Below, in pieces: positions 24,040 through 55,900 of a stretch of 64,000 bases of DNA (the stretch's first letter is position 1; the number at the start of each line of letters is the position of its first letter). The notes below the pieces were generated by a model. The model had not been told where the DNA came from, did no database searches, and saw only the letters and a program-made list of their open reading frames with translations. The position numbers were made by a program, and so were the translations under genes. Origin of the DNA: Thelephora terrestris. Taxonomy: Eukaryota; Basidiomycota; Agaricomycetes; Thelephorales; Thelephoraceae. The DNA lies in assembly GCA_015956445.1 (NCBI GenBank), contig WIUZ02000009.1:1116001-1180000 (forward strand). The letters are read 5' to 3'.

Positions 24040-25600
24040 GAGCAGATTCGCAAACCTTATTCAGAATTGAGAGAACGCGACCAGTTAAAGAAGGAAGGTG
24101 GACAAGAAGGACGTAGATTAGAGAAGGTTACCACGGGATTGGAAACAAACATGCCACGAGCGCGCACGGAGAGAAGGGTGAGCACGTAGTGACAGAACGA
24201 GGTGCCAGGATCGAGCGGAGGCCAGAGAGTGCTCGGCACACTTTCTGGAAAGGGGTTTGTTTGCCGATAAATGGCCGCAAGAAATATCTCTCCCCATATG
24301 CGAGCGCAAGGTGACCTCGGAAAAATAGCGGTTGCCTGAAATGGATGTGGGGTCCCCCTGCCCAATTGGCTCCAACGTCGTTGTCGCCTTTTCATTCTTC
24401 TACGACGCCTCTCCTTGAACTGTCATATATTCATTCAAAGCGATGCAGTCATCAGATCCTCATTCTTGTGCTCATTTCTCTGTTCTTCATTGTTGTACAA
24501 GGATGGGTGCACTTCACTAACGAAATACAGTCTGGTTGTGGCGACTACTTCCAACCCGAAAATCGCGGCGGCGCAGGCAACGGGCAGATTCAACGATCAG
24601 GGCAGCATCCGATATACATGGCCTGAGGTTTTTCATCTGATAGGGAGACCGCAACCAAAACCGTGGATATATAGAGGGCTACAGACACCGTACGGCACAG
24701 ACGAGGTGAAGTGAGACGAGAAAAAAATCTCACAAACGCAGACACAAGGTATATGGTTGACAGGAACGCACGAAGCGACCGAAAGCAGGGTCTGGAAAGA
24801 ACGGTCATAGGACAGAGGCGCAGGGGAGTCAATGAGCAGATAGAGGAAGATCAGGTGCAGTGAAACAAGGGCGGCCCCAGCGACGACGTTGTCGATGGTG
24901 GTCAGTAGTTGAAGGCGGCGCAACCGATGGGGAGTGCAGTTTGGGGCATCGAAAGAACTTCCGTGGCGAGTTCGAAGTGCCAGGTGGTCCTTTCGTTCAT
25001 CCTGCGCGGTCCTGAGCCGTCTGTGGATTACAGTCAACAATGGTCTCATGGTAACGGGTGTACAGGTAAGCCACCGCTAGCTGTTTGTCACCATGAACGC
25101 AGCGGGAAGCGAAACGGCCAAACTGGCATACAGGATAGCTTCAACGTGGACGATGGTGGGATCGGTCCTAGTTGACTGGGGCAAAACGAAATTGAGGTCA
25201 GCTGGGGTGTCCGAGAGATATTTTGCCGATAATGGTGTCACTGGGTTGGGGGAAATACAACTGAAGCTGGGTCACATCGTTGACAATGTGAGCGGATGTG
25301 ACGGCGGAAAACAAACCCCCAGAACATTCAGATCAACATCACGACCACAAAGAGAGAGAGAGAGAGAAAACACACGAAGTATAAGGTGTCCAAATATCCA
25401 CCGTGTTTCTTCGCAAAGTCGCGGTCACGGTTGCGTCGGAAGTAGAACTCGGCGGAAGCGTTGCTGGTCGGTGAACGGAGGTGTAGAAAAACGGGTGGGA
25501 ATGTCTCGAGCATTGGGTCTGAGAGAGAAACGGGACAGGGCGAAGATTCCATGGGTTGTCTCGGGTTTCCCCATGATGTAGAACGAAGAGCTGAGGGAAG
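24040..25600 (-). pseudogene. DUF6535 pseudogene 4 (unit 1)
   Basis: The N-terminal exon block near 25530-25400 reads PPVFLHLRSPTSNASAEFYFRRNRDRDFAKK, matching LPTLFPHLLGMASGARVEFYDKFQREADEYDRDF of the intact gene. A membrane-domain remnant (DERKDHLALR, LYLLIDSPAPLSYDRSFQTLLSV) lies at 25049-24770. Frames are broken and the C-terminal half is missing. Copy 2 is at 49930-51560. Confidence 0.65.
25351..25368. repeat. (AG)n microsatellite
   Basis: Nine AG dinucleotides lie in the intron-like part of DUF6535 pseudogene 4. The matching place in unit 2 (51281-51292) has only AGAGAGGGAG, so length differs between the copies. Confidence 0.7.
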
Positions 25601-25659
25601 ACTCAATCGGCTGCTGCCACGAAGCTGTGGGGTGACGCGCAACGCCTTCTTCGTTCACA

Positions 25660-26998
25660 CACCTCCGTCTTGAAAACCAAGCAGTACCAAACCCCCGAAT
25701 ATATGGCGGTAGCTTCGTATGGGCGATTTCCCCCCAAACCCCAACGATCTGTCGAAACTAATCTGCGATGATTCTTCCACCGTTTCCCGGGTTTTCATCA
25801 GGGATCGATGACCACGTCGGCCTCCCTTCCTCTGCGCCCCACTCAACGCTCCATTTTTCTATCGCCATGGATTTAATACTACTCACACCGCGTCGCGTCA
25901 CGATAACAGCGCGTGCCGTCTCGATTCGAACGGAGGACCAACCCGGACTTTGGTGCATCTGAGGCGTCATCTACTCGGAATAGGAGCCTTCCGCATGTGC
26001 GTCTCCAGAACTCGCAACTTCCCATGCGATAAATCCAATGACCACCGGCAACTCTCACACCCTCGCCTTCTATCTAGCCATTCGTCATCAACACACTCCC
26101 CTTTCATGCTCTCATCCCATCAACTGCCAATGTGATAAAATGCTAAACTTATCGTTCGGGCGTGATGGTCATGAACACTGATATTGCACCAGCTCGCGCT
26201 CCCTCAGACGATTTACGAAGTTTCACCCGCACCGTTGACCGTGGATGTTTTCTAAGCCCCGCCGTGCAGTAAACTTCAGGCTGTATCCCCGACCAACGTT
26301 CACGAACACGAAGTCATTGGATCGACTTCCGTCTTTGAAACTGATCACAACTTTACCTTGTCGAAATAGGCACGCCGGAGCCCACGTCCAGGGCTCATCG
26401 ATATTTCCTATCGGGTGAAAGGAAGGAATCATACGTTGTGGAATGGATAGGATGAGGAATTGCAGCAACCCAGTTTTCAGCTGTGGCGGATTCAGGCATC
26501 AGTGTACCTAAGTCATAGTTCACGGGCTTGATCCGCCCCAACCGTGTAGAAAATCGAGTCGCGAACTTGACAATCTGTACCTTGCATTGTTCGCTCCGCT
26601 AAAGACCAGCAAATCCGGCCGAATCCTGTGGCACTTAGCCAATCGTGTCAACATAATCCACCAAGGCACGTGGTCGGGCGCTGCGACACTTCATCCCGAA
26701 CGTCTCCACAACAATGCCGTGGTACAAAAAATCCAAGAAATCTTTTCAACCTTCTCAAACCTTTGCTTTTTTCATCCCTACCCACATCGCCGCAGGACCC
26801 CTCGGCATCGGTGCGGAGCTAAACCCGGACGTTGGGCCCGAAGGTGCGTTCCGTTCATAGGTCGATTCGGTCTATCTGATCATCCCAACAGGGTCAAATG
26901 GCGGGGGAGGATTCACGATTGTAAATCGAGGGATCGTGAGTCGGCAACCCGAACCATCGGGTGTATCGACCGCGACTCCCGGATTCGAGGATACTATT
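25660..26998. other. Upstream region of NACHT-WD40 gene 1, highly similar to 51590-52945
   Basis: No intact gene is recognised. The region is near-identical to its copy in unit 2. It probably holds the promoter and 5' leader of the receptor gene, including alternative upstream exon sequence ending in GGGGFTIVNRGIVS (26900-26940, in frame with the proposed start but without a start codon of its own). A conserved minus-strand frame at 26223-26468 is listed separately. Confidence 0.5.
26223..26468 (-). pseudogene. Conserved minus-strand ORF, possible gene relic (unit 1)
   Basis: The frame encodes DEPWTWAPACLFRQGKVVIS and FKDGSRSNDFVFVNVGRG. It is kept in the same frame at 52200-52415 with a handful of substitutions. 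The pattern (charged strand, KDGSRSxDF, FVxVxxGxG) looks like a protein domain rather than random sequence. It has no start context or partner exons, so it is treated as a relic. Confidence 0.3.
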
Positions 26999-29900
26999 AT
27001 GGGTGAGTCCATTCTGCTGCGACTGATAAGGCCAATGCCTGCGATCCTGATAACGACACACGACACAGAACATCAGAGAGAAGTCCCCTTGGACAGACCG
27101 AACGAGCGATCCGGTCTGATCGCCCGCGATCTCTCCCTCGTCGGTCAGAGGAAGCCAGAGGTTCGAAACGAGGAGGACAACCAAGATCGAGGAAATCTCG
27201 CTGAGCGACCGCCGCAGGCACCTGTTGAAAATAAGTCTCAAGTTGTTCACCCTGGCGAAAACGCGCAGGAGACCGCTCAGTCGGGTGGATCTAAGGGTGA
27301 GCGCCGAGTCTCTTGCCGTCTTCTGATTTGTACTAAAATCTGCCAGCCGCGGGAAGAGACTGGAAGAACACGGCCATCGGGGTAGTCGGGATTGCATCCG
27401 ACATTGCCATGGGTGTTGCCGAAGCTTTTAGCCCCCTCAAAGCCACCCTAGCGACCATCTCCGCCGTCTATGCTCAATACCAGGCTCGTCCACCATGCTC
27501 CTTCGGAAATTCGTTCTGACATATCTTCATTCAGGGAACCGCCGCCGTCAAGGACAAAATCGAATCCCTCGCTTTACGCATCGCTACGCTGGAGAAGGTT
27601 TTCGCGAAGTCCACCGATGATGAGGCTGAAAAAACACGCCGCGAAGAAATACAAACGTGTGTAGCTGGAACGAATCTTCACTCCACCCGAGTGCTGATAG
27701 TTTTATAGAAAATTCACCACCATTGAGGAAACATTGCGGTCGTTTTCCCAGAAGTCTTTAATCTCACGCGTTGCCGATCACGTCAAGGACAATGAAGATG
27801 TTTCTGGGCTGCTTGAAGATTTGCGGGAGGCTATCAACGACTATCAGGTTTGTTCGCGACCTCAGCACTAATCTCAATGTTGACAATGACTGCAGATGGT
27901 GCAACAAATGGCAATTTACGACCAAGGGTGCAAACTAATTGTATGTGTTCACCTCTTGGTCCCTCTTCTGAAAATTAACCTCTCTTGACAGGATGCAGGT
28001 CAGAACACATTCCGCTTTTGGCAACCGGTCCTGACATGAGACACTTGTAGCTGAGAGGGCAACCCTCAACACTTTCCGCCAGGCCCAGGGGGCAGAGTAC
28101 CGACATGTGGGCCGCAAAGGGTGTTTGAAGGGAACCCGCAGGACAGTGCTCGACGAGATTGAGCTGTGGGCAAGGGACTTTGCAAAGCTGCCTGTCTACT
28201 GGTTGAACGGCTTGGCTGGGACAGGAAAGAGCACCATCGCACAGACAATCGCAGAGAGGATGTTTGCAGAGGGACAGCTTGGCGCCTCCTTCTTCTGCTC
28301 ACGGGGCTTTGAAGACCGGAGCACCCTCCACTTCATCTTCCCTACCATCGCCATCCAGCTTGCCCGCAAGTACCCCGAATTCCGATCGGTTTTTGTCCCA
28401 CTGGTACAGTCTGATCCAGGCATTGCCTATGAATCACTGTACAACCAGATGGACAAACTGATTGTTGGGCCACTCAAGAAATCTTCCATTTCAATCACCA
28501 TTGTTATTGATGCCCTGGATGAATGTAAGGATGAGGAGCCCGCTTCGGCAATCCTCTCTGTCCTTGCACGATTTGTAACCCAGGTGCCAAAGGTCAAATT
28601 CTTCCTTACTGGCCGCCCAGAACCACGAATTCGAGAGGGCTTTCGCCTCCCCCTGTTGGTGGATGCAACAAACACCTTTGTTCTCCATGAAGTCCAGACA
28701 AATGAAATCAATAGCGACATACAGCAATTCTTTGAAAGCAGCTTCTTGGAACTTGCCTTCCGTCATACTGGGCTGGACAACTGGCCTACCAAAGAGCAAT
28801 TGAACCTCCTTTGCAAGAGGGCAGCAGGGTTGTTTGTGTATGCTGTGGCAACAGTCAAGTTCATCAACACTCAGAGTTTTCACCCCAGAGATCGGCTGGA
28901 TCTCCTTCTGCAGTTGCCAGACAGCACTGTTCATGAGGGAAAGACCAAATTCAATCCAAGCACATCCCTGGATTCACTGTATAGATCAATTCTCCAGGAG
29001 GCGTTTAGTCATGCTGGTGCAGAAGGCGACCCCAGAATCCATTCTATCCTTAGTGCTGTCATCCTTGCTGCCAATCCTCTTTCCCCATCTGCCATTTCCA
29101 CACTCCTTGGAATTAATCCTGATTATGTGACTCCCCCCTTGTTGTCAATCCACTCCCTCCTCATCCTTCATGAGGACATCAATAAACCTGTTCAACCCTT
29201 CCATAAATCCTTTCCTGACTTCATCACTGATCCCACCCGGTGTACCAATCAGAGGTTTTATATCTCTTCCTCTCACCACCTGGAGCTGTTGGTCTGTTGC
29301 TTAAACCTTATGAACAATACCCTGGAGAAAAATATGTGCCAACTCCCAGGGGCTGTCAACAACTCTGAGGTACATGACTTGCAGGAGAGGGCAGACAAGA
29401 AGATCAGCCAGGCTTTACAATATGCATGCAGGTCATGGTACAAGCACCTTGTCAATGAGCCTACAGCCAACAGACATGAAATCACTTCTGCTCTCTGTTG
29501 CTTCCTGGAGAAGAAGTTCTTGTTCTGGTTGGAAGTGCTTAGTGTCCTTGGTGCTCTGAGGAATGCAGTTGATGCATTGAAAATTGTTGCAGAGTGGCTG
29601 GAGGTGAGCTGATTTTGTGTTTAGTGCATTGTAAAAAATTTGCTAACTTGAACTAGGAGCTGCCGCTTCTTGACCTCACCAATGACTGCTTTAGATTTGT
29701 TGTGGGGTTTTTTGAAGTTATCAGCACATCTGCCCTGCATGTCTATCACACTGCATTGGTTCTATCCCCCAAGGAATCCATGGTGCAAAAACACTATGGA
29801 TCAAAGTTTGAACCACTGGCAACAGTCATTTCTGGGGTTCCAACTTTATGGGATCCTAACATTGCAAATTCAAAGTTTCCAGATCAAATTTGTACCACTG

Positions 29901-31543
29901 GATGGTCACCCTGCAGCAAGTTCTTTGCAGTTGCTTGGAGATGGTCCCCTAAAATAGCGATTTTGGATGCAGTGACTCTCAACCAACTCTACACCATGCA
30001 TCCCCAGAGCAGGGAACATAGCTGGGGAAAGGTTGTATTCTCCTCCAATAGCCATTTTCTAGCAGGGCACTCTCAGTGGTTTGGTTGCATTGTCACTTGG
30101 GACCTTCAGACAGGTGGTGTAATTGGTGACATTGAGGCATTCGGAACTGGTCCTTGCAAGTCAATGTCATTTTCTGAATGTGGGACAATGCTTGGGGGTC
30201 TATTTGATCAGAATTTTATCAGGACCTACAATATTCTCTCCAATACATGCATATCCTCCCATCGACTTCAAGGACATGCTGTTGATAACATTTGGACCTG
30301 TGGTGAATACCTTCAGTTTGCCACTGTTGACTCAGCATCTATTATCATATGGCAAATCAGCTTCACCTCGGGTGATGTACCAACAAGAGTTGGCTCTTTG
30401 TCCACTCCAGAAAATTTCTCCTCCAAAAGACTTGTTCTGCTCCCTACCCTCTCATGGCTTGCATTTATTGACGAGAGCAAAGTGGTAGTATGGGACACTC
30501 AACACCACAAAGTTCTCCTAAATTCTGCAGATGCTGAGGAGCCCAGAGCTATGTCCTTCTCCTCTGATGGTCAGTTTTTCATCTGTGGAACCAAGGGCAC
30601 AAAATCCTACCTCTGGAAGAAATCTCCTGATGGCTATCTTCCTCATCAAAAGCTTGTGTCCAGTGGTACTCAGAACCACCTGCTGGTTTCCCCAAATGGG
30701 GAGTCAGTTATCTCATCCCCATCTGGTGGAACAATGATTCAGCTGTGGCACATAGCAAATGCTCCCACCTCCTTCTCTGGCATCCCTGGACAAGTTTCCA
30801 AAGATTTCCTTGTAGATTTTTCTGCTGATGAATCACTCATTGCAGTTGCAGAGAAGAACAGCCATACAGTCACCATCTTTTCCATCAAGTCTGGTGCTCC
30901 TAGGTTGGTCATTGATGCAGAGACAGTGATTTGTGGTGTGAGGATCACAAAGGATGAAACCATTGTCATTGGTGATGGAAAGATTGTCACTTGGAACTTA
31001 TCTGCAAGGGATGGTAACTTTTATGCTGATAGGGCCCAGACAGTTGCCATCCAACATCCAGGATATGTTGAGGATCTATGGGCATCTGTAGCACCTAACC
31101 TTAACTATCTTGCCATTGGAAATTATACACCATCAAAGGAAGCTCTATGTATTTATAACATGCATAATGGTGAAAAGCTTGCAGTTGCCAGCTCAGGAGG
31201 GTGGATACCAGGGTTTACTCCAGATAGTTGCGGGGTCTGGATTTCAAGAGATGATGGTCAAGTGGACCAGTGGACAATTGTTGAAGAAGGTGGATCCAAT
31301 GTCATCAAGCTACAGCAAGTTGAAAAGGCTATAACTCCACAGGATGGTTTCCCCTGGCACTCATCCTGTGGCTACCGACTCACAGATGATGGAAGAATAC
31401 TCTCCTCCACTGGAAAGCAGCTCTTATGGCTACCCCATCATTGGCAACCAGATGAAAAGTTACAAGTGAGGTGGAGTGGCAATATTCTGGTGGTATGGAA
31501 TCACAAACTGCCAGCTCCCATCATCTTGAAGCTAGAAGTGTAA
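26999..31543 (+). CDS. NACHT-WD40 STAND (NLR-like) protein 1
   Basis: Exons 26999-27002, 27069-27296, 27347-27483, 27535-27656, 27709-27847, 27896-27940, 27992-27998, 28051-29603 and 29657-31543 sum to 4,122 nt and encode 1,373 aa. After a disordered, charged N-terminus comes a helical adaptor (IGVVGIASDIAMGVAEAFSP to about KLI) like the four-helix N-domains of fungal NLRs. The NACHT NTPase has Walker A GLAGTGKSTIAQTIAER (about 28210), Walker B VIDALDECKD (about 28508) and the sensor stretch VKFFLTGRPEPRIR. Then come helical domains, the family block NDCFRFVVGFFEVISTSALHVYHTAL and a degenerate WD40 propeller to the C-terminus. Such proteins are thought to sense non-self and trigger cell death. 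The start may lie upstream. Exon 7 is a 7-nt micro-exon, and intron 3 has a GC donor. Confidence 0.9.
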
Positions 31544-32157
31544 CTTTGATTGTTTCTATCCCTTTCATGCCTTTATCTTCATTTTGCATTCTATTGTGTA
31601 CAATGCTCTGAACCAACCTGTTCCTTCCTCCACTTCTTAAATTTCCCCAGTCTCCTTGTTCTTTATACTAAAAGATCAGAACCTTGATATACTTGTGAAT
31701 GTGAAATATGCTTTTCTCTTGTGGTGAACATGAAGGCTCTGTTCATTTACTTTGTATTATATATGTTTTTCACACATGTGGAAAAATGATGGTCATTAGA
31801 ATGCAAATAAGTGATAACACTGTACTCTTTCATCAAACCTGGGAGCTACTGTTATCCTTCACACCCTCACTGAATTGTGGCAATGGCTTCCAAACGACAA
31901 GTTATAGTGGCACATGCGATGAGCAGAGCTATATATTAGGGGGTAACATCCCACACACAGATAATACATGGTAAAATCATAACCAGAAACAAAATGAAAA
32001 TGTGGGCCAACAAAGAAAGAAAAGGACAGACACAGGGACATGACATGACATGAGGTTAGGCAAGATGGGGTCACAAGCACACACAAAAACACAAACAGAG
32101 AAATGAATGAATGAGAAAGCACAAGGTGAGAGCCAGTAGATTAAACCAAGATCAATG
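31544..32157. other. Convergent intergenic region, receptor 3' end to DUF6535 3' end (unit 1)
   Basis: These 614 bp separate the two stop codons. No gene is seen. The sequence is related to 57504-58132 but visibly more diverged than the coding parts. It must hold both 3' untranslated regions. Confidence 0.7.
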
Positions 32158-33645
32158 TTAACCTCTCTTTAACGCAAGCAAAGCAACCCTTGCTTGTTGA
32201 AGGTTATGCACCTTCATCCTAAGAGCGATGGCTGCCGGGTCAACAGACCAAGTGTTGTGCTGACCCAATGCCGTCTCAGCCTTTGCCAACTCTGAGTCCA
32301 TCACTGACATGTACATATCCAGGTCTGTCCGCCTTGTCCCCTGAGCAAGCCTCTTTGTGATCTCCTCCAGCTGCTCCCGGACTGGAGGAATCAACTCGTT
32401 GTGCTTCAGCCATAGGATAGCCAAAGAACCATCGCCGTCAGGTCGTTCACCTCCGAAATCACGTCAGTCACCTCCGGGTTGTCAAGACACCGCTTCAACG
32501 GCTGCGAGTTGTCAGGTACTGATGCAAAGTACTCAAGGAGCTTCCATTTCTCAGTGACGATGTGATGGTGCCAGTGAGGAGAGTTAATCATGCCAAAGAG
32601 GACCGCAAGCGTGGCCTTCTGAACGTCATGCATGTGTTCGATGCCATCAACGGCCAATGCCCTGTCTACACACAGGCTTCGCATTTGATCGGGCTCCATG
32701 ATAGGTTTGGCAATGTTGAACCATCTGTCGCTGATGAGTGGAAGGAAGAAGAGGGAGACCTTGCAGAGCTGGAATGGCTTGTTGTCCTGGTAGACATAGC
32801 AGATACCCCGGACGAAGGATGGTTCGGTCAGGTTGAAGAGCTTGAGGGCTTTGATCATAACGGGACCTGAGGCGTAAGCGAGAGCGCGCAGAGCGTTCTG
32901 TATTGGCTTGTCGTGATTTTCATCAAGCCGAGTAGCCAAGTTGAAGTGGTGATCCAGGAACGCCAAGATGTCCTTCCGATCCTCGACCCACGGCAAGAAC
33001 TTGTCCCACTTGTAGGCGCCGTGCATGGTGAGACGAGAGGCATCCCATTTCTTCTGCTGGGTGTAGGTCTCAGAGAGTGGAGCCTGCATGAGCACGTGGA
33101 AGAGGTTGTAGCTCTTCGTGGCAATGTCGTTCTTGGACAAGGGCGCGATTAGCTCCATGGTTGCCAGCGCGCGGTCAATCTCTTCAGTGGTGGCGGTTGT
33201 CAGGGCCACTCTACCCCAACAACTACCAGTGCACTGAGCCGACTCCGCAGAGTACTCACTAGTCCAACTAGCTTGTGATTGGATGGTCACACCAATATTC
33301 TTCCGGTAGGTTGTCCGAGGTCACTACAAGTCAAGTCGAAATCCTAAAGAGAAACCCAACCTAAACCTATCTTCGAAAGGTTTAACCAACAAGGGTTTAT
33401 CCCTACAACAGGATTGATGACTCCACCAGGTGTTTGGCTGGACGATCAAGGTATTCTATATGGAGAACGCTCGGGTTCGATAGTTATGAGGAGCAGCCAA
33501 AGGCGCAGAGCGGGAGGGAGAGCAGATGGGTTGTGATGGATTCCAACAGAAAACTCTGACTTGACCTTAACTGCAACTGGGCTGAGAAGGGCAGAGGATT
33601 TCCTGAGGTAACAAAACTAAGGTACTACGATACAGCCATAATCTA

Positions 33646-33676
33646 CTTATATACTACTAGAGTGGCCATGACGTCA
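33646..33676 (-). promoter_or_regulatory. Outward promoter of element copy D (TGACGTCA plus TATATAAG)
   Basis: On the minus strand TGACGTCA (33676-33669) is followed by TATATAAG (33653-33646), the best TATA box of the four copies. Transcription would leave the element at 33198 and enter the 3' half of the disrupted DUF6535 gene in its sense direction. Confidence 0.6.
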
Positions 33677-34269
33677 GTATCTTAATTTACCCTTATAAAT
33701 ACAGAACAAAAGAGTGTGGGAACACTAAGTAAGGGAAGAGAACAAGTATGACGCGTGGGAGAATAAAGGACAAAGGGCCTTACTAGCGTGTGAAGGATTG
33801 CATAAAAGATAAGAGATGTCCGCATGAAACATAGGGGTAAAGATAACACTAGTCCTAAAAGAAATAGGGGCATAGGGTTCATTAAAGTTCGTACCTGGGG
33901 ATCACACCCAAGGGTCAGGTGGAAACGTCTCGTTGCTTCGTGCAATTTCGAGCAGCTCCGAGATCAGGGACCATACAGCATCCCTTGTTGTCTGTAGGCG
34001 GTAACAGCATCACGGACTAGTGGCAACCTTAATGCGGCTCCGGACATGAGGAGGTAGGCCTAGACTCATGGGAGATAAGGGATTACTGTCAGGAACATGG
34101 TATTTTTAAACTTTTTATAACACGCTCTTTCTTTGAACTCTTCTTACCACTTCTTATGTTTTGAATGCTTCACACTCCTTATCCTTCATATCAATCATTC
34201 AAAACACACACACGCGCGTACTATTCCCAGCGAATCCACAACGAGCTATACAAGTGCTGTCCAATCCTA

Positions 34270-36009
34270 TCAAAAGTCGACTCTATCGACGGCAGGCCTG
34301 AAGGTCATCAACTGTCCATCCCGGAGATCGTAGTGCTGGCCCCTCCTTGCTAGGACCTCCCCGAACATAGCGTCACCATCTTCGGCACTCAGCTGAACGA
34401 CTAGTTCAAGCCGATAGGAAGAGATGCCTTCGAGCGGACCGATCAGCCTCCCAGATGTCACCGAACTCTGGAACACCTGGTCCCACATCTCCATCACCGG
34501 GTGACTGCTCGACAGTACTGTCGACGTAGTCGGCAAGCGACCCTCCGTCTCCCTCATCGGACCCCTGGGCGGAATCCTGCCTTGCGAGGCGAAGCTGGTG
34601 TCGGAGTTGAATCTCGGACTCGACCTGTCAGTAAGGACGGTGGACCCGATATCGGAATCCTCGCTCCTCACCTCGACCAGATTGGTCACCATCTGACTCG
34701 ACTGGTCGAGGGTAAGGATTAGCCGACGCGGTCATACGATGGGCGGGACGGCGTCGAGAGCGCTTGCAACGTTGCCCCTTAGTCACTGGACGTACCTCGG
34801 CAACCCTCGGAGCCTCTTCGGCTCGGTCTACCTCCATGACCGCATCCTCGATCTTGACCAGCTGACTGATCGGCTGCAAGACGCAGCGCCCACAGTTCTC
34901 CTTGTCGGAAGCAGCCAAGGTGGAAGCCGGACCTGGAGTTGGAACGGGAACCGCGTTCTCGATCGGAGGCGTCGCATAGGACGACGGGTTAGGCGATTGA
35001 AGTACCACCTCGTCGGCGTACTCCAACTCGAACGGAACATCGGCTGTCCCCTGACCAACCAATTTGGGACCCTCCTTGCAGTTGCAGGTCTTATCCTGCA
35101 AGGACTCGACCTGCGCTGTCAACACGGCCACCACGTTCTCGAGTTCTTCAGTCTAGGAAATGTCAGCTTCCATCATTCTAAGCAAATGATGAAAGCGGCA
35201 TTACCTTTTCATCCCTCCTGGCCAACGCCCCCTTGATGTTGTTATCCCTAACCTTCAACCCGGCGATCAACTCTTGATGGTTGGCGACCATTGCCTCCAA
35301 CGCCTCGTTCGTCCCTTGCTGGAAGGCAGCCAAGGTCTCCTTCATTGCGAGACCCTCCACTGACAGACGAAGGACGTCTGCCTTCGCCTCCTTCACCTCG
35401 CGCTCCAATCGTTCAACCTAGGCAGTCTGATTAGTCGAGAGTCATACTCGAATATTCAGACAGAAAACCTACCCGGCTTTCTCCTTCCCGAACGAGCGAC
35501 CACGGGAGACTAGTGGAAGCGGTAGCATGGCGGACGGCCCGAGGAACAGTCGCTCCGTGCTCCAATAGGTCCTGATCGTAGATCCCCCTCTGCAGGGTAT
35601 ACCAGAGCTCCTTCTTGATCGGATGCTCCAGCTCCCCGAACCTACCCCTCATCTGGAAGGCCACCTTCTCGGCAATGATCGTGCGGACCCAGAGCTCATC
35701 GTCCCAGGTCAACCCCATCAAATGAGGCATCGTCTCCCTGAGACGTTCGGCGTCCACTTCCGTGATGACCTCCAAGATCTAGAAGCCGTTAGCTGGACAT
35801 CAACGCCCAAAAGAACGTTCCTCTACCTAGAGGAAGGCGTTAGTGCTAACACACGAAGCTCTAGGTCTCCCCCATACCTGGTCATCCGTGGTATAGGGAG
35901 TCCCAGCCGCACAAGCATAGGTTTTGCGGTTGGCGGCACGACGGTCGATGCGAGAGATGGTAGAGATGCCGTTGGCGACTTTGTAGGTATGGTTGTTGGG
36001 GAAGGACAT
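34270..36009 (-). CDS. Coiled-coil DDELW-family protein of element copy C
   Basis: Exons are 36009-35878, 35778-35473, 35417-35205 and 35152 onward. Exon 1 encodes MSFPNNHTYKVANGISTISR. Exon 2 carries LTWDDELWVRTIIAEKVAFQ and ELEHPIKKELWYTLQRGIYD. Exon 3 is a heptad-rich coiled coil. Exon 4 has ESLQDKTCNCKEG, VPFELEYADEVVLQSPNPSS, ASDKENCGRC and a basic stretch GQRCKRSRRRPAHRM that could be a nuclear signal. The frame stops at about 34628. The +1 frame then continues to 34270 with SSVTSGRLIGP and SSYRLELVVQLSAEDGD, conserved in copy D. No transposase, integrase, protease or reverse transcriptase motif is visible. Function is unknown. Confidence 0.75.
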
Positions 36010-36931
36010 GTTTTGGTACGATGATGGGAAAGTTGCTGGTGTTGCTGATCAAGGATGGCTCCAAGAAGACGTCCTTCTTATAGCCTAGATCGGTGATCCT
36101 TCACGTGACCTACCTCGACGAACCTCATTGGTCCGGGTCACATCAACTTCCGCCCCTGTACCATCATCGTTGGCTTACTGTATCAAGCTGACACCTCAGC
36201 CCGCGGGACGGCCTTGGAAGAACTTCGTTCCGGAACGCCTAGAACGCGCGCGCACTAAAAATAGGTCTCAAGACCCTGATGACCCCTTCATGACATCACG
36301 AACCCCTTTACGACCCCTCATGACTTTACGATTACGATCAACCCTGGACCCTGGAACACACACGTGGGCACGGGGTATCAACAATTGGACACTGTGCTTC
36401 TAATCGGATAGTAACCCTATCTGATCTAGTTGTGCTTTGGAAGCAGAGTAGGCCCGAGCCGAGAACGGCGGCCGAAGAATATAATCCCTGGTGCCACTTA
36501 GGAAGAACGATATTCCCAGGTGCTATGCCTAATCAAGACTGGGTCTGATCAAGCGATTACGGCTGCAACTCCCAGGTTACTGCCTGTCCGTTGGTATCAT
36601 ACCACCTACCGACAACAAGGGATGTGTAGAGTTCCTTCGATCTCTAGCCAATCACAGAAGCTCAGAGACGGTGCTCACCTGACCCTTGGGTGTGGTCTAG
36701 ATTCAGGTACGAACTTTCATGACCCATGCCCCTTTTTCTTTTAGGACTAGTGTTATCTTTACCCCTATGTTTCATGCGGACATTCGTTATCTTTTATGCA
36801 ATCCTTCACACGCTAGTAAGGCCCTTTGTCCTTTATTCTCCCACGCGTCATATTTGTTCGCTTCCCTTACTTAGCGTTCTCACACTCCTTATCTCCCTTT
36901 GTTCGGACTTGATAAGGGTATATTAGGGTAT

Positions 36932-36960
36932 TGACGTCATGGCCACTCCTTTAGTATAAG
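36932..36960 (+). promoter_or_regulatory. Outward promoter of element copy C
   Basis: TGACGTCA (36932-36939) and TATAAG (36955-36960) lie 451 bp from the TGTCAGGGCC end, in the orientation that would transcribe outward into copy D. Confidence 0.55.
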
Positions 36961-37897
36961 TAGCAACTGTGGCTGTATCGTAGTACCTTAGTTTTGTTAC
37001 CTCAGGAAATCCTCTTCCCTTCTCAGCCCAGTTGCAGTTAAGGACAAGTCAGAGTTTCTTGTTTGATCCAAGACACCCCCTATCTGCTCTCCCTCCCGCT
37101 CTGCGCATCAACTGCGCCTCGTAACTATAGACTCCCAGCAGTCATATTAGAACACCTCGAGCGTCCAGTCGATCAACTGGTGGAGTCATCAATCCTGTTG
37201 TAGGGATAAACCCTTGCGTGTTAAACCGAACGAAGTACGGTTTAGGTTGGGTTTCTCTTTAGGATTTCGATCTGACTTGTAGTGACCTCGGACAACCTAC
37301 CGGAAGAATAGAGACGTGATCGTTCTCTCACAAGCTAGTTGGACTAGTGAGTACTCTGCGGAGTTGGCTCAGTGCACTGGTAGTAGTTGGGGTAGAGTGG
37401 CCCTGACAATTACATGCTTCGCCGGCGTTTCGTGCTAGCGGCTACTTCCACATTCACCGGCTGCCCAATAGGATCCAAAGGCGATCCTTCCGAGTAGCGG
37501 CGAGTCCTTCCTTCGGTTAGGAAGACTGTGATGTGACTGTCCACGTGTGTGATCAGGGTCCAGGGTTGGTCGTTATCGTGATGTCATAAATGAGTCATCA
37601 GGGGTCGTAAAGGAGGTTCGTAATAGAGTCGTCAAGGTCATGAGACCTATTTTTGTGCGCGCGTGTTAAAGGCGTTCTGGAACGAAGTTCTTCCAAGGCC
37701 GTCCTGCGGGCCGAGGTGTCAGCTTGATGTAGTAAGCCAACGATGCTGGTACAGTGGCGGAAGTTGATATGACCCGGACCAATGAGGTGCGTCGAGGGTA
37801 GGTCATGTGTGGATCACCGATCTAGGCTATAAGAAGGACGCCTTCTTGGAGCCATCCTTGATCAGCAACACCAACAACTTCCCCACTACTTACCAAC

Positions 37898-39632
37898 ATG
37901 TCTTTCCCCAACAACCACACCTTCCAGGTCGCCCAAGGTATTGCTACCATCGCCCGTACCAACCGCCGCACCGCCGAGTCCAAGAAGTACGCTGCCGAGG
38001 CGGGGAAACCGTATGTGACCGACAAAAAGGTAGATCTTTTCTTGATAGTTCAATCAAGAAAGGGGTCTAACTTTTCTAGATTTTAGAGGTTATCCAGCAG
38101 GTGGATGCCGAACGTTTCTGTAAGACGTTGCCGAAGACTCCCGCGTTGACCTGGGACGATGAACTGTGGTTCCGTTCCATCATCTCGGAGAAGGTACTGC
38201 AGCAGATGCGAGGACACTTTGGGGAGCTCGAGCATCCCATCAAGAGAGAGCTGTGGTATGCCCTTAAGCGAGGGGTCTACGATCAGGGGCTATTGGAGCA
38301 CGGCTCGACCGTTCCTAGGGCCATCCGCCACGCCACCTCCGCCACCATGCTGTTGTGGTCTCTTGTTCATGAAGGAGATAGCAAGGTGGGTTGCTAGGTT
38401 GTTCCGAGTATGACTCTCGGTTAACCATAGCTTCCATAGGTGGAACGTCTGGAAAGGGAGGTGAAAGAAGCGAAGGCCGATGCTCTTCGTGCATCGTCCC
38501 AGTGCTTGGAGATGAAGGAAATGATGGCTGAGTTCCAAATCCAGACCAATGAGGCGTTGGAGGCAATGGTTGCCAACCATAGGGAGTTGATCGCAGGGTT
38601 GGGCGTTCGGGATACCAACGTGAAGGGTGCCTTGAATGCGAGGGACGACTGCCTGGATAGGCACTCTAAGAAGATCGGGGATGACAGCAGTAGGGTAATC
38701 GCTGCCTTCTTCTTTCAGTTGTGAAAGATGATTGCTAACGATTATCTAGGTCGACGAACTAGAGGATAGGGTAGAGGTTCTGACAGCCATGATCGAGTCC
38801 TTACAGGACAAGACTTGTCGCTGTGGCAAGTCACCTCAATTGGTGGGACAAGGGTCCACCGATGTTCCGTTCGAGTTGGAGTACACCGATGATGAGGTGG
38901 TACTCCCGTCACCTAACCCGTCATCCTACGCCACCCCTCTGGTAGAGAACGCCGCTCCTATCCCAACTCCGGCTCCAGCTTCCGTTGTGGAGGCGTCCGA
39001 CAAGGAGAACTGTGGACGTTGTCCAATTACGCCGCGCCTTCCATTGGGTCAGTTGGTTCCCATCGAGGAGATGTCTGTTGACCGGGCCGAGGATGCACCG
39101 AGGACTGCCGAGGTACGTCCGGCTGTTACTGGGCAGCGTTGCAAACGCTCCAAGTTCAGTCGCGTGGGTTGTATGGCGGCCTCAAATCCTTACCCGCTTC
39201 CAGATGAGTCGAGTGGTGATGAGACTAGTGGAGATGGTGCTCGACGATTCAAGTACCGAGTCAATCAAGGGTACCGCAACGTCGCCTCGGAGATCGAGCT
39301 CCGTTGGAACCTCCGCCTCGCTCATGAGCAACCAGGAGATGCCTCCGCCGAGGGGGATGGAGGTTCGCTCGCCAACTACGTCGAGAGTGCTGCCGAGCAA
39401 TCACCTGGTCCTGGAGATGTTAAACCAGGTGTGGAGGAGTTCGGTGACATCTGGGAGGCTAGTGGGACCTTACAACGGTATCTCTTCCTATCGGCTTGAG
39501 CTGGTAGTCGTGCTGAGCGCAGAGGACGGGGACACCCTGGTAGGAGAGATGTTGCCAAGGAGGGACCACTGGGTGAACCGGGATGGTCAGCACGAACATT
39601 GGGTGCCTCTTGAGGATCAAGTCGACTTCTGA
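37898..39632 (+). CDS. Coiled-coil DDELW-family protein of element copy D
   Basis: Exons are 37898-38029, 38080-38385, 38440-38694 and 38750 onward, with short GT/AG introns at the same places as copy C. Exon 2 has LTWDDELWFRSIISEKVLQQ and HPIKRELWYALKRGVYDQ. Exon 3 begins VERLEREVKEAKADALRASS and is longer than in A or C (255 against 213 nt). Exon 4 holds DKTCRCGKS, VPFELEYTDDEVVLPSPNPS and KENCGRC. The first frame is open to 39499. The +1 frame, conserved with copy C (RSSVTSGRLVGP, SSYRLELVVVLSAEDGD), runs to 39632. The signature motifs show no visible lesion. No known domain. Confidence 0.75.
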
Positions 39633-39941
39633 ATGGACTTATATAGCACTTTGAATAACCTTGTAGTTCCGTATTGTCTTGAACGTTATGCGCGTTGGGT
39701 GTTTGTGAATAATGGAGTGAAGAATAAGGAGTGTGAAGTGTTCGAACATAAGAAAAGATAAGAAAGTTCGAGGAAAGAGTGTTGTTATAAAAGTTTTAAA
39801 AATACCATGTTCCTGACAGCGGTCGGGTTGCTGAATGTCTCGACAAGCTTCTTGTAGATCCTCTCTACTTGCTGGTTTTTTCGTGACTATGACAAACGAT
39901 TGAGCTTTATCCAAGATGAACACATAGAAAATGTTACCTCT

Positions 39942-40885
39942 CACTAGGGGCAAGGGGTCAAATACCCGGTGGGTACATGCTGAACACATTGTGATCACAG
40001 TCAACAAGTGATCACAATGTGCCCAGTGGGGAAAATTTAAATACATTCAAAATGTACCAGGCAATGTGAATCCAATGTGCCCAGTGGGCACATTTTGATT
40101 GCGATCACAATGTACCCATCAATGTGATTTCAATGTACCCACTGGGGACATTTTGATTGCGATCACAATGTACACATCAATGTGATCTCAATGTGCCTGC
40201 TGTGCACATTTTAATTTCTTTCACAATGTTCCCATCAATGTGTTCACAATGTACCCAGCTCATTACATAATGGTTTCTTTCACAATGTTGTCCACAATGT
40301 GTCCAGCATGTGGCTGAGCCACTCATTCAGACTTCTTTCACAAAGTATCCAGTGATGTGTCTAGAATGTGTACAGCCATATACATAGTGATTTCTTTGAG
40401 AGTTCATGGTGAAATTGAACAATATTGTGATTACATTGTGATTACTACCCCCTGGGGACATTATGGACACATCACTGGATAATCTTTGAAAAAAGTTTGA
40501 ATGAGTGGCTCAGCCACATGCTGGACACATTGTGGACAACATTGTGAAAGAAACCATTATGTAATGAGCTGGGTACATTGTGAACACATTGATGGGAACA
40601 TTGTGAAAGAAATTAAAATGTGCACAGCAGGCACATTGAGATCACATTGATGTGTACATTGTGATCGCAATCAAAATGTCCCCAGTGGGTACATTGAAAT
40701 CACATTGATGGGTACATTGTGATCGCAATCAAAATGTGCCCACTGGGCACATTGGATTCACATTGCCTGGTACATTTTGAATGTATTTAAATTTTCCCCA
40801 CTGGGCACATTGTGATCACTTGTTGACTGTGATCACAATGTGTTCAGCATGTACCCACCGGGTATTTGACCCCTTGCCCCCAGTG
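39942..40885. mobile_element. Foldback (palindromic) CACTA-ended element 2
   Basis: A 944-bp palindrome with arms starting CACTAGGGGCAAGGGGTC (left) and CACTGGGGGCAAGGGGTC (right, inverted). It has an unpaired centre of about 100 bp around 40356-40455. It is flanked by TCT (39939-39941 and 40886-40888). The intact paralogue reads ACCTCTTGTCAATGACC at 59290-59306, giving the empty site. The arms are built of repeated ACATTGTGATCACA-like blocks. No coding capacity. It is similar in size and design to element 1 but different in sequence. Confidence 0.92.
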
Positions 40886-49929: not shown

Positions 49930-51560
49930 GCTACACGTGCAATGAACAAATTTGCAAACATTGTTCAGAATTAAGAGAACGCGACCCGAGAAAAAAAGGA
50001 AGGTGGACAAGAAGGACGTATCTGAGAATGCAACGTAGATTAGACAAGGTTACCACGGGACTGGAAACAAACATGCCACGAGCGCACACGGAGAGAAGGG
50101 TGAGCACGGGGTGACAGAACGAGATGCGAGGATCGAGCGAGAAACGCAGAGAGCGGATGCCAGAGAGTGCTCGGCACACTTTCTGGAAAGGGGTTTGTTT
50201 GCCAATAAATGGCCGCAAGAAATATCTCCCCCCATATTCGAGTGCAAGGTGATCTCGGAAAAATAGCGGTTGCACGAAGTGGATGTGTGGTTAAAGTAGC
50301 TTCAACGTCGTTGTCGCCTTTCCAATCTTCTACGACGCCGCTCCTTGAACTGTCATATTTTCATTCAAAGCGAGCGATGCATTCATCAACTCCTCGTTCT
50401 TGTGCTCATTTGTCTGTTCCCCATCGCTTTGTACAAGGATGGGTATGCTTCACTAACGAAATACGATGGGGCTGTGCTGAATTGCGGCAACTATTTCCGA
50501 CCCAGAAAGTCGCGGTGATGCAGGCAACGGGCAGATTTATAGATGATGGCGGCATCCGATATACATGCCCTGAGGTTTTTCATCCGATAGGGAGACCGCA
50601 ACCAAAACTGTAGATATACAGAGGGATACAGACACCGTACGGCACAGACGAGGTGAAGTGAGACGAGAGAAAAATCTCACAAACGCAGACACAAGGTATA
50701 TGGTTAACAGGAACGCACAAAGCGACCGACAGCAGGGTCTGGAAAGAACGGTCATAGGACAGAGCCGCAGGGGAGTCAATGAGCAGATAGAAGATCAGAT
50801 GCAGTGAAACCAAGGGCAGCCCAGCGACGACGTCGTCGCTGGTAGTCAGGTAGTTGAAGGCGGCACAACCGATGAGGAGGAGTCCAGTTTGGGGCATCGG
50901 AAGAACTTCCGTGGCGATTTCGAAGTGCCAGGTGGTCCTTTCGTTCATCCTGGGCGGTCAAAAATGATCTCATGGTAAGGGGTACAGGTAAGGCACCGCT
51001 TGCCCAGTTTAGCGATGAACTCGGCGGGAAGTAAAACGGCGAAACTGGCTTGGAGGATAGCTTCAAAAAGTGGACGATGGTGGTTGCGGCGCTAGTTCAT
51101 CAGGGCAAGACGGATCGAGATCGGCTGGGGGGTGTCGAGAGAGATTTTGTCGATAATCGTGAGCACGGTGTCACTGGGTTGGGTGGAGTGCAACTGGAGC
51201 TGGGTCTCATCGTTTACAATGTGAGCGGAAGTGACGGCGGAAAACAAGCACCCAGAAAATTCAAATCAACATCACGACCACAAAGAGAGGGAGAAAACAC
51301 ACTAAGGATAAGGTGTCCAAGTATCCACCGTGTCCCTTCGCAGTCATGGTCGCGTCGGAATTAGAATTCGATGGGAGCGTCATGCTAGTCGGTCCAAGGA
51401 GGTGTAAAAAGAGGGGTGGAAATGTCTCGAGCATTGAGTACTTGGGTCTGAGAGAGAAACGGGACGAAGCAAAGATGTCCACGGATTGTGTCTGGTTCCC
51501 ATGATGTGGAACGAAGAGCTGAGGGAAGACTCGATCGGCTGCTGCGTAGCTGTGGTGACT
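49930..51560 (-). pseudogene. DUF6535 pseudogene 4 (unit 2)
   Basis: Matches 24040-25600 along its length, with the membrane-domain remnant at 50948-50580 (NERTTWHFEIATEVLPMPQTGLLLIG, FYLLIDSPAALSYDRSFQ) and the N-terminal block near 51460-51340. Frames are broken and there is no C-terminal half. Confidence 0.65.
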
Positions 51561-51589
51561 CGGAGGGGGACGCGCAACCCCTTCTTCGT

Positions 51590-52945
51590 TCACACATCTC
51601 CGTCTTTATAATCAAGCAGTACCAAACCCCCGAATATATGGCGGTAGCTTCGTATGGGCGATTTCCCCCCAAACCCCAATGATCTGCCGAAACTAATCTG
51701 CGATGATTCCTCCACCATTTTCCGAGCTTTCGTCAGTGATTGAAGACCACGTCGGCCGGAATCCCTTCTTTTACGCCCCACTCAACGCTCAATTCTTCCA
51801 TCGCCATGCATTTAATACTACTCGCACCGCGTCGCGTCACGATAACAGCGCGTGCCGTCTCGATTCGAATGGAGGACCAACCCGGAGTTTGGTGCATCTG
51901 AGGCGTCACCTACTCGGAATAGGAGCCTTCCGCATGTGCGTCTCCAGCACTCACAACTTCCCATGCGATAAATCCAATGACCATCGGCAACTCTCACACC
52001 CTCGCCTTCTACTCGGCCATTCGTCATCAACACACTCCCCTTTCATGCTCTCATCCCATCAACTGCCAATCTGATCAAATGCTAAACTTATCGTTCGGGC
52101 GTGATGGTCATGGCTGCACGAACGCTGATATTGCACCAGCTCGCGTCCCATCAGACAATTTACGACGTTTCACCCGCACCGTTGACCGTGGATGTTTTCT
52201 CAGCCCCGCCGTGCAGTAAAATTCGAGCTGTATTCCCGACCAACGTTCACGAACACGAAGTCATTGGATCGACCTCCGTCCTTGAAATTGATCACGGCTT
52301 TACCCTGTCGAAATAGGCACGCCGGAGCCCGCGTCCAGGGTTCGTCGATTTTTTCTATCGGGTGAAAGGATGGAATCATACGTTGTGGAATGGATAGGAT
52401 GAGGAATTGCAGCAACCCAGTTTTCAGCTGTGACGGATTCAGGCATCAGTGTACCTAAGTCATATTTCACGGGCTTGATCCGCCCCGACCGTGTAGAAAA
52501 TCGAGTCGCAAACTTGACAATCTGTACCTTGCATTGTTCGCTCCGCTAAAGACCAGCAAATCCAGCTGAATCCTGTGGCGCTTAGCCAATCGTGTCAACA
52601 TAATCCACCAAGGCACGTGGTCGGGCGCTGCGACACTTCATCCCGAACGTCTACACAACAATGCCGTGGTTCAAAAAATCCAAGAAATCTTTTCAACCTT
52701 CTCAAACCTTTGCTTTTTTCATCCCTACCCACATCGCCGCAGGACCCCTCGGCATCGGTGTGGAGCTAAACCCGGACGTTGGGCCCGAAGGTGCGTTCCG
52801 TTCATAGGTCGATTCGGTCTATCTGATCATCCCAACAGGGTCAAACGGCGGGAGAGGATTCACGATTGTAAATCGAGGGATCGTGAGTCGGCAACCCGAA
52901 CCATCGGGTGTATCGACCGCGACTCCCGGATTCGAGGATACTATT
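51590..52945. other. Upstream region of NACHT-WD40 gene 2
   Basis: Near-identical to 25660-26998. It probably holds the promoter and leader of receptor 2. No intact gene is recognised apart from the conserved minus-strand frame at 52200-52415. Confidence 0.5.
52200..52415 (-). pseudogene. Conserved minus-strand ORF, possible gene relic (unit 2)
   Basis: Counterpart of 26223-26468, with ACLFRQGKAVINFKDGGRSN and FVFVNVGRE. Most differences are single-base substitutions and the frame stays open, though it starts and ends at different stops. Confidence 0.3.
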
Positions 52946-55900
52946 ATGGGTGAGTCCATTCTGCTGCGACTGATAAGGCCAATGCCTGCGATCCTGATAA
53001 CGACACACGACACAGAACATCAGAGAGAAGTCCCCTTGGACAGACCGAACGAGCGATCCGGTCTGATCGCCCGCGATCTCTCCCTCGTCGGTCAGAGGAA
53101 GCCAGAGGTTCGAAACGAGGAGGACAACCAAGATCGAGGAAATCTCGCTGAGCGACCGCCGCAGGCACCTGTTGAAAATAAGTCTCAAGTTGTTCACCCT
53201 GGCGAAAACGCGCAGGAGACCGCTCAGTCGGGTGGATCTAAGGGTGAGCGCCGAGTCTCTTGCCGTCTTCTGATTTGTACTAAAATCTGCCAGCCGCGGG
53301 AAGAGACTGGAAGGACACGGCCATCGGGGTAGTCGGGATTGCATCCGACATTGCCATGGGTGTTGCCGAAGCTTTTAGCCCCCTCAAAGCCACCCTAGCG
53401 ACCATCTCCGCCGTCTATGCTCAATACCAGGCTCGTCCACCATGCTCCTTCGGAAATTCGTTCTGACATATCTTCATTCAGGGAACCGCCGCCGTCAAGG
53501 ACAAAATCGAATCCCTCGCTTTACGCATCGCTACGCTGGAGAAGGTTTTCGTGAAGTCCACAGATGATGAGGCTGAAAAAACACGCCGCGAAGAACTACA
53601 AACGTGTGTAGCTGGAACGAATCTTCACTCCACCCGAGTGCTGATAGTTTTATAGAAAATTCACCACCATTGAGGAAACATTGCGGTCGTTTTCCCAGAA
53701 GTCTTTAATCTCACGCGTTGCCGATCACGTCAAGGACAATGAAGATGTTTCTGGGCTGCTTGAAGATTTGCGGGAGGCTATCAACGACTATCAGGTTTGT
53801 TCGCGACCTCAGCACTAATCTCAATGTTGACAATGACTGCAGATGGTGCAACAAATGGCAATTTACGACCAAGGGTGCAAACTAATTGTATGTGTTCACC
53901 TCTTGGTCCCTCTTCTGAAAATTAACCTCTCTTGACAGGATGCAGGTCAGAACACATTCCACTTTTGGCAACCGGTCCTGACATGAGACACTTGTAGCTG
54001 AGAGGGCAACCCTCAACACTTTCCGCCAGGCCCAGGGGGCGGAGTACCGACATGTGGGCCGCAAAGGGTGTTTGAAGGGAACCCGCAGGACAGTGCTCGA
54101 CGAGATTGAGCTGTGGGCAAGGGACTTTGCAAAGCTGCCTGTCTACTGGTTGAACGGCTTGGCTGGGACAGGAAAGAGCACCATCGCACAGACAATCGCA
54201 GAGAGGATGTTCGCAGAGGGACAGCTTGGCGCCTCCTTCTTCTGCTCACGAGACTTTGAGGATCGGAGCAACCTCCAGTTCATCTTCCCCACCATCGCCA
54301 TCCAGCTTGCCCACAAGTACCCCGAATTCCGATCGGTTTTTGTCCCACTGGTACAGCCTGATCCGGGTATTGCCTATGAATCGCTGTACAACCAGATGGA
54401 CAAGCTGATTGTTGGGCCACTCAAGAAATCTCCCATTCCAATTTCAACCATTATCATCATTGATGCCCTGGATGAGTGTAAGGACAAGGAGTCCACTTCA
54501 GCTATCCTTTCTGTCCTTGCACGATTTGTATCTCAGGTGCCAAATGTCAAATTCTTCCTTACTGGCCGTCCAGAACCACGTATCCGGAAAGGCTTCCGCC
54601 TCCCCCTGTTGATGAAAGCAACAGATATCTTTCTTCTCCATGAGGTCAAGTCAGATCAAGTCAACAGCGATATCAGACAATTCTTCAAGGAGAGCCTCCT
54701 GGAACTGGCCAATAATTCTGGACTAGATCACTGGCCTGCCAAAGAACAGATGGACCTCCTTTGTGAGAGGGCAGCAGGGCTGTTTGTGTATGCTGTAGCA
54801 ACAGTCAAGTTCATTGATAGCCAGAACTATCCCCCCAAAAAACGGCTGGAACTCCTTCTGCAGTCTCCAGGGAGCAGTGTTCATGTGGGGGGCACCGAGT
54901 TTGATGAAAACACATCCCTGGATTCACTGTATAGATTGATTCTTCAGGGAGCATTTGGTGGTGATGGTGCTGAAGATGATTCCAAAGTCCACTCTGTTCT
55001 CGCTGCCATTGTCCTTGCTGCCAATCCCCTCTCTCCATCCGCCATTGCTACACTCCTTGGAATTGATCCTGAGGAAGTGACTCCCCTTTTGTTATCAATC
55101 CACTCCCTCCTTATCCTTCATGAAGACATCAGTAAACCTGTCCAACCATTCCATAAATCTTTTCCCGACTTTATCACCAATCCTGCCAGGTGTACCAACC
55201 AGAAGCTTTGCATCTCTCCCTCCCATCACCTGGGGCTTTTGGTCCATTGCTTGAACCTTATGAACAATACACTGGAGAAGAATATGTGTCAACTCCCAGA
55301 GGCTATTGCCAACTCTGAGGTCCATGACTTGCAGGAGAGGGCAGACAAAAACATCAGCCAAGCTTTACAATATGCATGCAGGTCATGGCACAAGCACCTT
55401 GTCAATGAGCCTACAGCCAACAGAAATGAGATCACTTCTGCTCTCTGTTGCTTCCTGGAGAAGAAGTTCTTGTTCTGGTTGGAAGTGCTTAGTGTCCTTG
55501 GTGCTCTGAGGAATGCAGTTGATGCCTTGAAAGTTATTGCAGAGTGGTCAGAGGTAAGCTCAATTCTTGTGTTTAGTTCATCACAAACATTTGCTGACTT
55601 GAACTAGGAGACATCACTTCTTGACCTCACCAATGACTGCTTTAGATTCATTGTGGGGTTTTTTGAAGTTATAAGCACATCTGCCCTGGATGTCTATCAC
55701 ACTGCCCTAGTTCTATCCCCCAAGGAATCCATGGTGCAAAAACAATATGGATCAAAGTTTGAACCACTGGCAACAGTCATCCATGGAGTTCCTGCTGTAT
55801 GGGATCCTAGCATTGCAAATGGAAAGTTTCCAGAGGAGATTACAGCCACTGGATGGTCACCTTGCAGCAAGTTCTTTGCAGTTGCTTTGTATTACTCTCC

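Follow-up and report, generated by a model that had tools for sequence, protein, structure and literature searches.

The mouse mammary tumour virus (MMTV), a vertebrate retrovirus, carries a protein gene, sag, in its long terminal repeat (LTR) in sense orientation. The plant elements Retand, Grande and RIRE2 contain a conserved extra gene antisense to gag-pol, to which no role is assigned in the available sections of PMC11963269 and PMC7264820, and the accessible descriptions of the Botrytis Boty elements give an antisense extra open reading frame (ORF), brtn. Self-priming of the Tf1 type is described in the available part of PMC2864245. Here a stretch of 64,000 nucleotides from Thelephora terrestris (contig WIUZ02000009.1; hereafter the window) was analysed. 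The unit at 34087–37408, termed copy C, is very probably the solo LTR of a chromodomain Ty3/Gypsy retrotransposon of this fungus, whose unique 3' region (U3) carries a selected, spliced antisense gene; this grading applies to the anatomy and to the selected gene, not to the role of the product.

Copy C and its target-site duplication (TSD) were delimited as follows.

34082–34086, unstranded: left TSD ATTAC of copy C, a perfect flanking repeat
34087–37408, plus strand (gag-pol sense also plus): copy C, solo LTR of 3322 bp, the same repeat standing at the ends of the gag-pol regions in three full-length elements
37409–37413, unstranded: right TSD ATTAC of copy C, a perfect flanking repeat

The genome from which the window derives was searched with copy C and 40 of 636 candidates were scored, so that the match counts are lower bounds. 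At least 75 matching places were found, at least 17 of them full-length with copy C included, and a perfect 5-bp TSD was present in 15 of these 17. Further copies of the C-type repeat occurred as same-strand pairs spaced 8–9 kb apart, and three full-length elements (C56, C12 and C4) were read piecewise. Both LTRs were recovered from the C56 and C12 elements and were 100.0% identical in each, with outer TSDs of CTGCC and GTGCA, respectively; the C4 element gave one LTR and both outer ends, with a TSD of ATCAC. The internal regions of the three measured 5997, 6017 and 5079 bp, and in the C12 element pol ends 20 nt upstream of the 3' LTR. Pfam matches to the internal ORFs comprised a gag zinc knuckle, reverse transcriptase, RNase H, integrase, SH3_Tf2-1 and a chromodomain, with an aspartyl protease in two of the three elements. 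The order protease, reverse transcriptase, RNase H, integrase and the presence of a chromodomain are those of a Ty3/Gypsy chromovirus, as are the paired TG...CA LTRs, the short TSD and the polypurine tract, a purine-rich tract that lies upstream of the LTR in the full-length elements.

A first-pass annotation of the window had proposed a candidate undescribed mobile family, perhaps with its own mobility protein. This was largely refuted, as the unit is the LTR of a Ty3/Gypsy chromovirus with full-length copies in the same genome; a new autonomous element was dropped as a candidate after the full-length LTR pairs turned up. Copy C is a single LTR between matching TSDs, full-length copies with that LTR are present in the genome, and because the same repeat forms the ends of gag-pol elements it is identified as a solo LTR. 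The annotation had seen no reverse transcriptase, integrase or second direct repeat because the two enzymes are encoded in the internal region, and the correctly noted lack of a direct repeat linking the unit ends is as expected of a solo LTR. The view of the unit as mobile DNA carrying a conserved spliced gene held. The further suggestion that it moves in trans with the gene as a passenger was right in that the mobility proteins are supplied by the internal gag-pol region; as the gene is under purifying selection, "passenger" understates it.

Two further features of the LTR were located by sequence.

36955–36963, plus strand: TATA-like box TATAAGTAG, the putative gag-pol promoter, beginning 34 nt before the predicted start of the repeat region (R)
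36989–37000, plus strand: TAGTTTTGTTAC, candidate self-primer and predicted R start; in full-length copies its complement lies directly beyond the 5' LTR

In the C family this 12-mer within the LTR is complementary to bases beyond the LTR end and begins 34 nt after the start of the TATA-like box. A different 11-mer is complementary in the same manner in the B family, at 36 nt, with the B primer site taken from the C23 element. Primer complementarity of the observed lengths arose in 4, 1 and 4 of 1000 shuffled controls; the transcript start is a prediction from sequence. The complementarity fits self-priming of the Tf1 type and would place R from 36989 and U3 at 34087–36988 (approximately 2.9 kb). 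No tRNA primer site was seen by eye after the LTR end, where no dedicated scan was run.

LTR starts numbered 208 + 207 = 415 in the genome at up to one mismatch, with none for the backward-pattern control, and the exon-2 motif of the LTR gene described below occurred 375 times. The LTR-internal and internal-LTR junctions numbered eight each and paired one to one. A search for pol copies (36 of 162 candidates scored) gave eight of the C-type family at 99–100%, one with a TGA, followed by three at 62%, one with a TGA, and then by values of at most 34%. C23 contains, by coordinates, two internal regions with a common middle LTR, a pattern that LTR-LTR recombination can leave, and a B-type LTR pair on C23 with an outer TSD of ATGTC flanks one of the 62% pol copies. 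The 21-base LTR start of the B family occurred 173 times at up to two mismatches, a few of which may belong to other families. Further C-type starts were sampled as 26 exact matches, 17 from the 21 listed for C1 and nine from the first 11 for C2, with the exception of starts already collected, those in known full-length copies and one other; 15 proved to be single LTRs, complete and with matching TSD, and the other 11 were interrupted or truncated. A pair suspected on C1 from its spacing (3260118, 3269278) was rejected, its first member being a solo LTR with TSD CTTCC.

These counts bear on whether copy C could belong to a new mobile class, a single 3.3-kb block moving by its own gene product. 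There are many more single units with perfect TSDs than full-length copies, and all 17 full-length matches to copy C fall in one LTR length class with none at the eight internal regions; with eight full-length elements among approximately 400, however, absence from a minor class is unsurprising. The same repeat stands at both ends of elements with complete gag-pol and TSDs, it is LTR-like in its ends, in the length of its TSD, in the polypurine tract and in the primer complementarity, and its protein matches no transposase family in Pfam or NCBIfam, which makes a new class highly improbable.

The gene of copy C consists of five exons encoding 479 amino acids, runs antisense to gag-pol and lies inside the predicted U3.

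35878–36009, minus strand: exon 1 of the copy C antisense gene, ATG at 36009
35473–35778, minus strand: exon 2, DDELW
35205–35417, minus strand: exon 3, coiled coil
34796–35152, minus strand: exon 4, CxC motif and proline/acidic stretch
34702–34795, minus strand: intron 4, which reads through in the exon-4 frame
34270–34701, minus strand: exon 5, TGA at 34270–34272, partly overlapped by the read-through frame

Three further copies of the repeat lie in the window.

8483–11405, minus strand: copy B, solo LTR of a related family, 2923 bp, TSD TTGTT
9402–9536, 9590–9919, 9971–10237, 10290–10440, 10491–10657 and 10722–11153, plus strand: antisense gene of copy B, 493 amino acids, open
33198–34086, minus strand (LTR sense also minus): copy D, piece 1, TSD GCGGT outside
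37414–39818, minus strand: copy D, piece 2, beyond the copy C insertion, TSD GCGGT outside
37898–38029, 38080–38385, 38440–38694, 38750–39112 and 39204–39632, plus strand: antisense gene of copy D, 494 amino acids, open
17862–17669, 5308–4694, 3540–3412 and 1831–654 (overall 654–17862), entered as plus strand with its start at 17862 on the minus strand: copy A, an LTR copy in four pieces, split by later insertions

The start TGTCAGGGCCAC said to be shared by copies A to D was found four times in the window without mismatch, compared with a chance expectation of 0.48 at up to one mismatch and a count of four in 1 of 100 shuffles. Three TGTCAG...CTGACA units (B, C and D) have perfect 5-bp flanking repeats, the CTGACA ends and the duplications TTGTT, ATTAC and GCGGT all being re-found; the far end of copy A, the fourth start, is not assessable because that copy is in pieces. 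Copy D (33198–39818) is interrupted by copy C and has a length of approximately 3294 bp of its own, so the stated unit size of 2.9–3.3 kb was reproduced. DDELW, the coiled coil and the CxC motif are present in the gene of each of B, C and D. Matching introns were confirmed in position and phase for introns 1–3, with the reservation that B has one extra intron. The gene is also open in one further B-family copy.

Selection on the gene was assessed from 42 end-complete LTR copies, 27 from the similarity search with copy C and 15 from the 26-start sample. By their flanks, 35 were solo LTRs with TSD, five lay in the three full-length elements and two (L008 and L013) had no matching TSD. L007 and L008 are two LTRs on C59, 40 kb apart and 100.0% identical, with the same ten left bases and different right bases, perhaps a local duplication. 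Start, stop, frame and every GT/AG were kept in all 42 copies, two of which have in-frame length differences (490–491 amino acids). With L008, L023 and L026 dropped as twins of kept copies, the 39 distinct copies gave divergences of 0.049, 0.044 and 0.162 at the three codon positions, the third being 3–4 times the others, and ratios of nonsynonymous to synonymous divergence (dN/dS) of 0.146 pairwise (741 pairs) and 0.116 over nearest neighbours. All but two or three copies have the same exon lengths; in length, introns 1 and 3 are variable and introns 2 and 4 constant. The 300 singleton changes comprised 142 synonymous, 158 nonsynonymous and no stops, where a nonsynonymous to synonymous ratio of 2.4–3.1 and approximately 3% stops (9–10) would be expected without selection. 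These data show that the LTR gene is under purifying selection at the protein level; the constraint on pol exceeds it (pN/pS 0.019–0.033 at pS 0.17–0.19, three copies).

Open frames might arise as a by-product of base composition or of constraint on the sense strand of U3, and both U3 and the R/U5 side, at a divergence of 0.027 among LTR copies, are indeed constrained. The other phases of exons 2–4 contain stops in 39 of 39 copies (exon 1 has stops in one phase and none in the other), third positions diverge 3–4 times more than first and second, and splice sites are kept in 42 of 42 copies, so that this explanation has a practically negligible probability. An antisense transcript acting as RNA, by forming double-stranded RNA with the U3 of the genomic RNA while the protein is irrelevant, would be complementary to U3 by construction, and PMC7264820, in the text available, considers a role of this kind for plant elements. 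The codon-position pattern and dN/dS are those of protein-level selection, and an RNA role in place of the protein is very unlikely, though one may coexist with it.

Several observations weigh against the interpretation of copy C as an LTR with a working gene. The gene is a prediction from DNA sequence, and 27 of the 42 copies were picked by similarity to copy C and all 42 for having both ends. Six of the 11 interrupted copies were scored, the remaining five being too partial; L061 alone was open and five were closed when judged by projected exon limits, some perhaps wrongly because the same projection fails on copy D, which is open with its own splice sites. Singletons are also less constrained (142 synonymous to 158 not) than variants found in 6–12 copies (93 to 35), and some neutral drift after insertion is therefore likely. 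Damaged insertions seem to decay, and the simplest view of the intact copies is that they inserted recently and that the differences among them go back to working lineages. Among 316 common biallelic sites in the 39 distinct copies (L001–L066), linkage fell from an r2 of 0.44 within 20 bp to 0.04–0.05 beyond 500 bp; because linkage decays within approximately 500 bp, recombination among LTR copies appears extensive, perhaps an exchange of pieces by template switching.

The same data bear on a host gene family, spread by the element and now used by the fungus, in which selection would act on solo LTRs as host genes. Constraint is strong although 36 of the 39 copies in the dN/dS set lie outside the full-length elements read, and there are no stops among the 300 singletons. 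Against this, the gene was never seen here outside the LTR, older or interrupted copies seem to decay, the singleton constraint is weaker, and the data are also explained by recent insertion from element lineages under selection. Host use is accordingly considered unlikely, and a gene selected within the retrotransposon lineage is preferred.

Intron 4 of the LTR gene can be read through in the frame of exon 4, and its divergence by read-through codon position was 0.064, 0.039 and 0.182, a pattern reached in 3 of 5000 shuffles; intron 1, taken as a control, had no codon-position pattern (3623 of 5000). Part of exon 5 is covered by both the spliced and the read-through frame, which differ in phase, and the remaining frame of the overlap has stops in 39 of 39 copies. 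In this stretch the spliced frame shows no excess at third positions (0.055, 0.099, 0.076; 2559 of 5000 shuffles), and it regains one beyond the read-through stop (0.050, 0.045, 0.133). In 33 of the 39 copies the read-through frame is open as far as a common end, which corresponds to 34406 in copy C. It is also open in copy D (249 codons from exon 4) and shorter in copy B, at 189 codons from exon 5, with 211 in L072. The intron-coded peptide of B, within limits chosen by hand, resembles that of C (1 of 5000 shuffles) and not that of D (508 of 5000). This codon-level constraint suggests that there are probably two isoforms with different C-termini, one spliced and one with intron 4 retained. 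Three points tell against them: the third-position excess of the read-through frame is weak in the overlap (114 of 5000 shuffles), the frame is broken in six of 39 copies including C, which has an early stop, and intron 2 varies in length no more than intron 4.

No known domain was found in the gene product above cutoff in Pfam or NCBIfam, where the sub-cutoff matches were of coiled-coil type and included no transposase family as would mark a DNA transposon. The bZIP_1 match, to the basic leucine zipper (bZIP) domain, had an E-value of 0.52 and 10.9 bits against a cutoff of 27.6, and a PDB sequence search gave one match at E 0.46 and none lower. The annotated absence of reverse transcriptase, integrase and transposase families from the gene product was thus upheld in the domain and PDB sequence searches. 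Derivation from gag was rejected, as BLASTP of protein P0007 against the gag of the element gave chance matches (best E 2.3). The predicted structure has one helix at 126–241, well supported in its middle, with the remainder mostly of low confidence (mean predicted local distance difference test score 49.4, predicted template modelling score 0.24). A fold search gave 46 matches at E ≤ 10 and none at ≤ 0.001, which says little because the model is poor. By sequence, the product is predicted to be a coiled-coil protein without known domain. Three protein searches, in which the best 8000, 8000 and 7998 candidates were scored, gave at least 81, 93 and 6 relatives, all from T. terrestris or environmental contigs, with database clusters of up to 40 (C type) and 51 (B type). 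The copy D protein is 66% and a B piece 36% identical to P0007.

Recombination between the two LTRs of a Ty3/Gypsy chromovirus would have left copy C at 34087–37408. The parent layout would be a 3.3-kb LTR, approximately 6 kb of gag-pol and a second LTR, with Tf1-like self-priming probable. The antisense gene would stand in the U3 of approximately 2.9 kb head to head with the gag-pol promoter, with approximately 1 kb between them as a presumed shared promoter region. The introns would outlast each cycle of retrotransposition because the genomic RNA reads the gene backwards and they are not spliced out of it, and because the gene sits in the LTR every full copy bears it twice and every solo LTR retains it whole. 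The coiled-coil product, in its putative spliced and intron-retaining forms, may be a trans-acting accessory regulator that the element produces for its own benefit, which is the most likely role and a guess. Every statement on role is inferred, which counts against a firm assignment. A helper or anti-silencing function comes close to an even chance and is preferred, because selection among element copies favours a product that aids its bearers; repression and copy-number control resembling that of HBZ, the antisense gene product of human T-cell leukaemia virus type 1 (HTLV-1), is rather doubtful, and other roles or host use take the rest. As to origin, a shift of the polypurine tract could have made an antisense gene beyond pol part of U3, and the end of pol at the LTR border fits this possibility without proving it. 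It is possible, though rather less likely than not, that the lineage took an antisense regulatory gene into its LTR, perhaps by such a shift to the pol end, and that the solo LTRs, likely hundreds, form a dispersed bank of a trans-acting two-form protein with overlapping frames for the few full-length elements.

The remaining features of the window lie in and around the LTR copies. Copy A contains an insert of approximately 12.4 kb (5309–17668) bounded by inverted CATCAGCAAACTTGTCC, which includes copy B and an ORF at 13072–14130 with a Plavaka transposase match, and is probably a large DNA transposon. Also within copy A, 3560–4504 is a perfect inverted repeat with two 465-base arms, a 15-base gap and CACTGGGG-type ends. 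A second long inverted repeat lies directly beyond copy D at 39942–40885, with 428-base arms that are 98% complementary and an 88-base gap. Repeated blocks approximately 26 kb apart, at 24555–33000 and 50500–59000, have ORFs with NACHT/NPHP3_N (28107–29612) and WD40-type matches (29702–31543 and 55653–57503), with DUF6535 nearby (59288–60757), and look like a duplicated NOD-like receptor (NLR)-like cluster.

No published description of this element, or of such a gene inside the LTR of a fungal element, was found in the open-licence literature. Solo LTRs, commonly regarded as inert remnants or stray promoters, would here be whole genes. The layout would explain how a spliced gene persists in a retroelement, has a counterpart in the antisense genes of retroviruses, and offers a natural setting in which an LTR-encoded protein might help the element to escape silencing or control its copy number. 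The result bears on annotation as well: among the "hypothetical proteins" of T. terrestris many, in the database clusters of up to 40 C-type and 51 B-type members, are LTR genes.

The element resembles MMTV in having a gene in the LTR and differs from it in that sag is in sense orientation and belongs to a vertebrate retrovirus. With the fungal Ty3/Gypsy chromoviruses it shares the TG...CA ends, 5-bp TSD, gag zinc knuckle, order of protease, reverse transcriptase, RNase H and integrase, SH3_Tf2-1 and chromodomain, and, by prediction, with Tf1-type elements a primer complementarity inside the LTR. Its LTR seems unusually long, at 3.3 kb with a gene, whereas the available part of PMC2864245 gives LTRs of 440 bp for one quoted element. 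A conserved extra gene antisense to gag-pol is common to this element and to Retand, Grande, RIRE2 and brtn. In the accessible accounts, however, those genes are internal, mostly between pol and the 3' LTR, and the Retand/Grande-type ORFs typically have a TRP28 domain; in the present element 20 nt separate pol from the 3' LTR, and the gene is contained in both LTRs, is retained in solo LTRs and has no TRP28 domain. HTLV-1 HBZ, as far as described in the available text of PMC10186651, is likewise encoded antisense, occurs in spliced and unspliced forms and is a protein of coiled-coil type. The HBZ forms differ at the N-terminus, while those proposed here differ at the C-terminus, and HBZ is a bZIP protein with its promoter alone in the LTR, whereas the match of the present product to bZIP_1 is far below cutoff and the whole gene is placed within U3.

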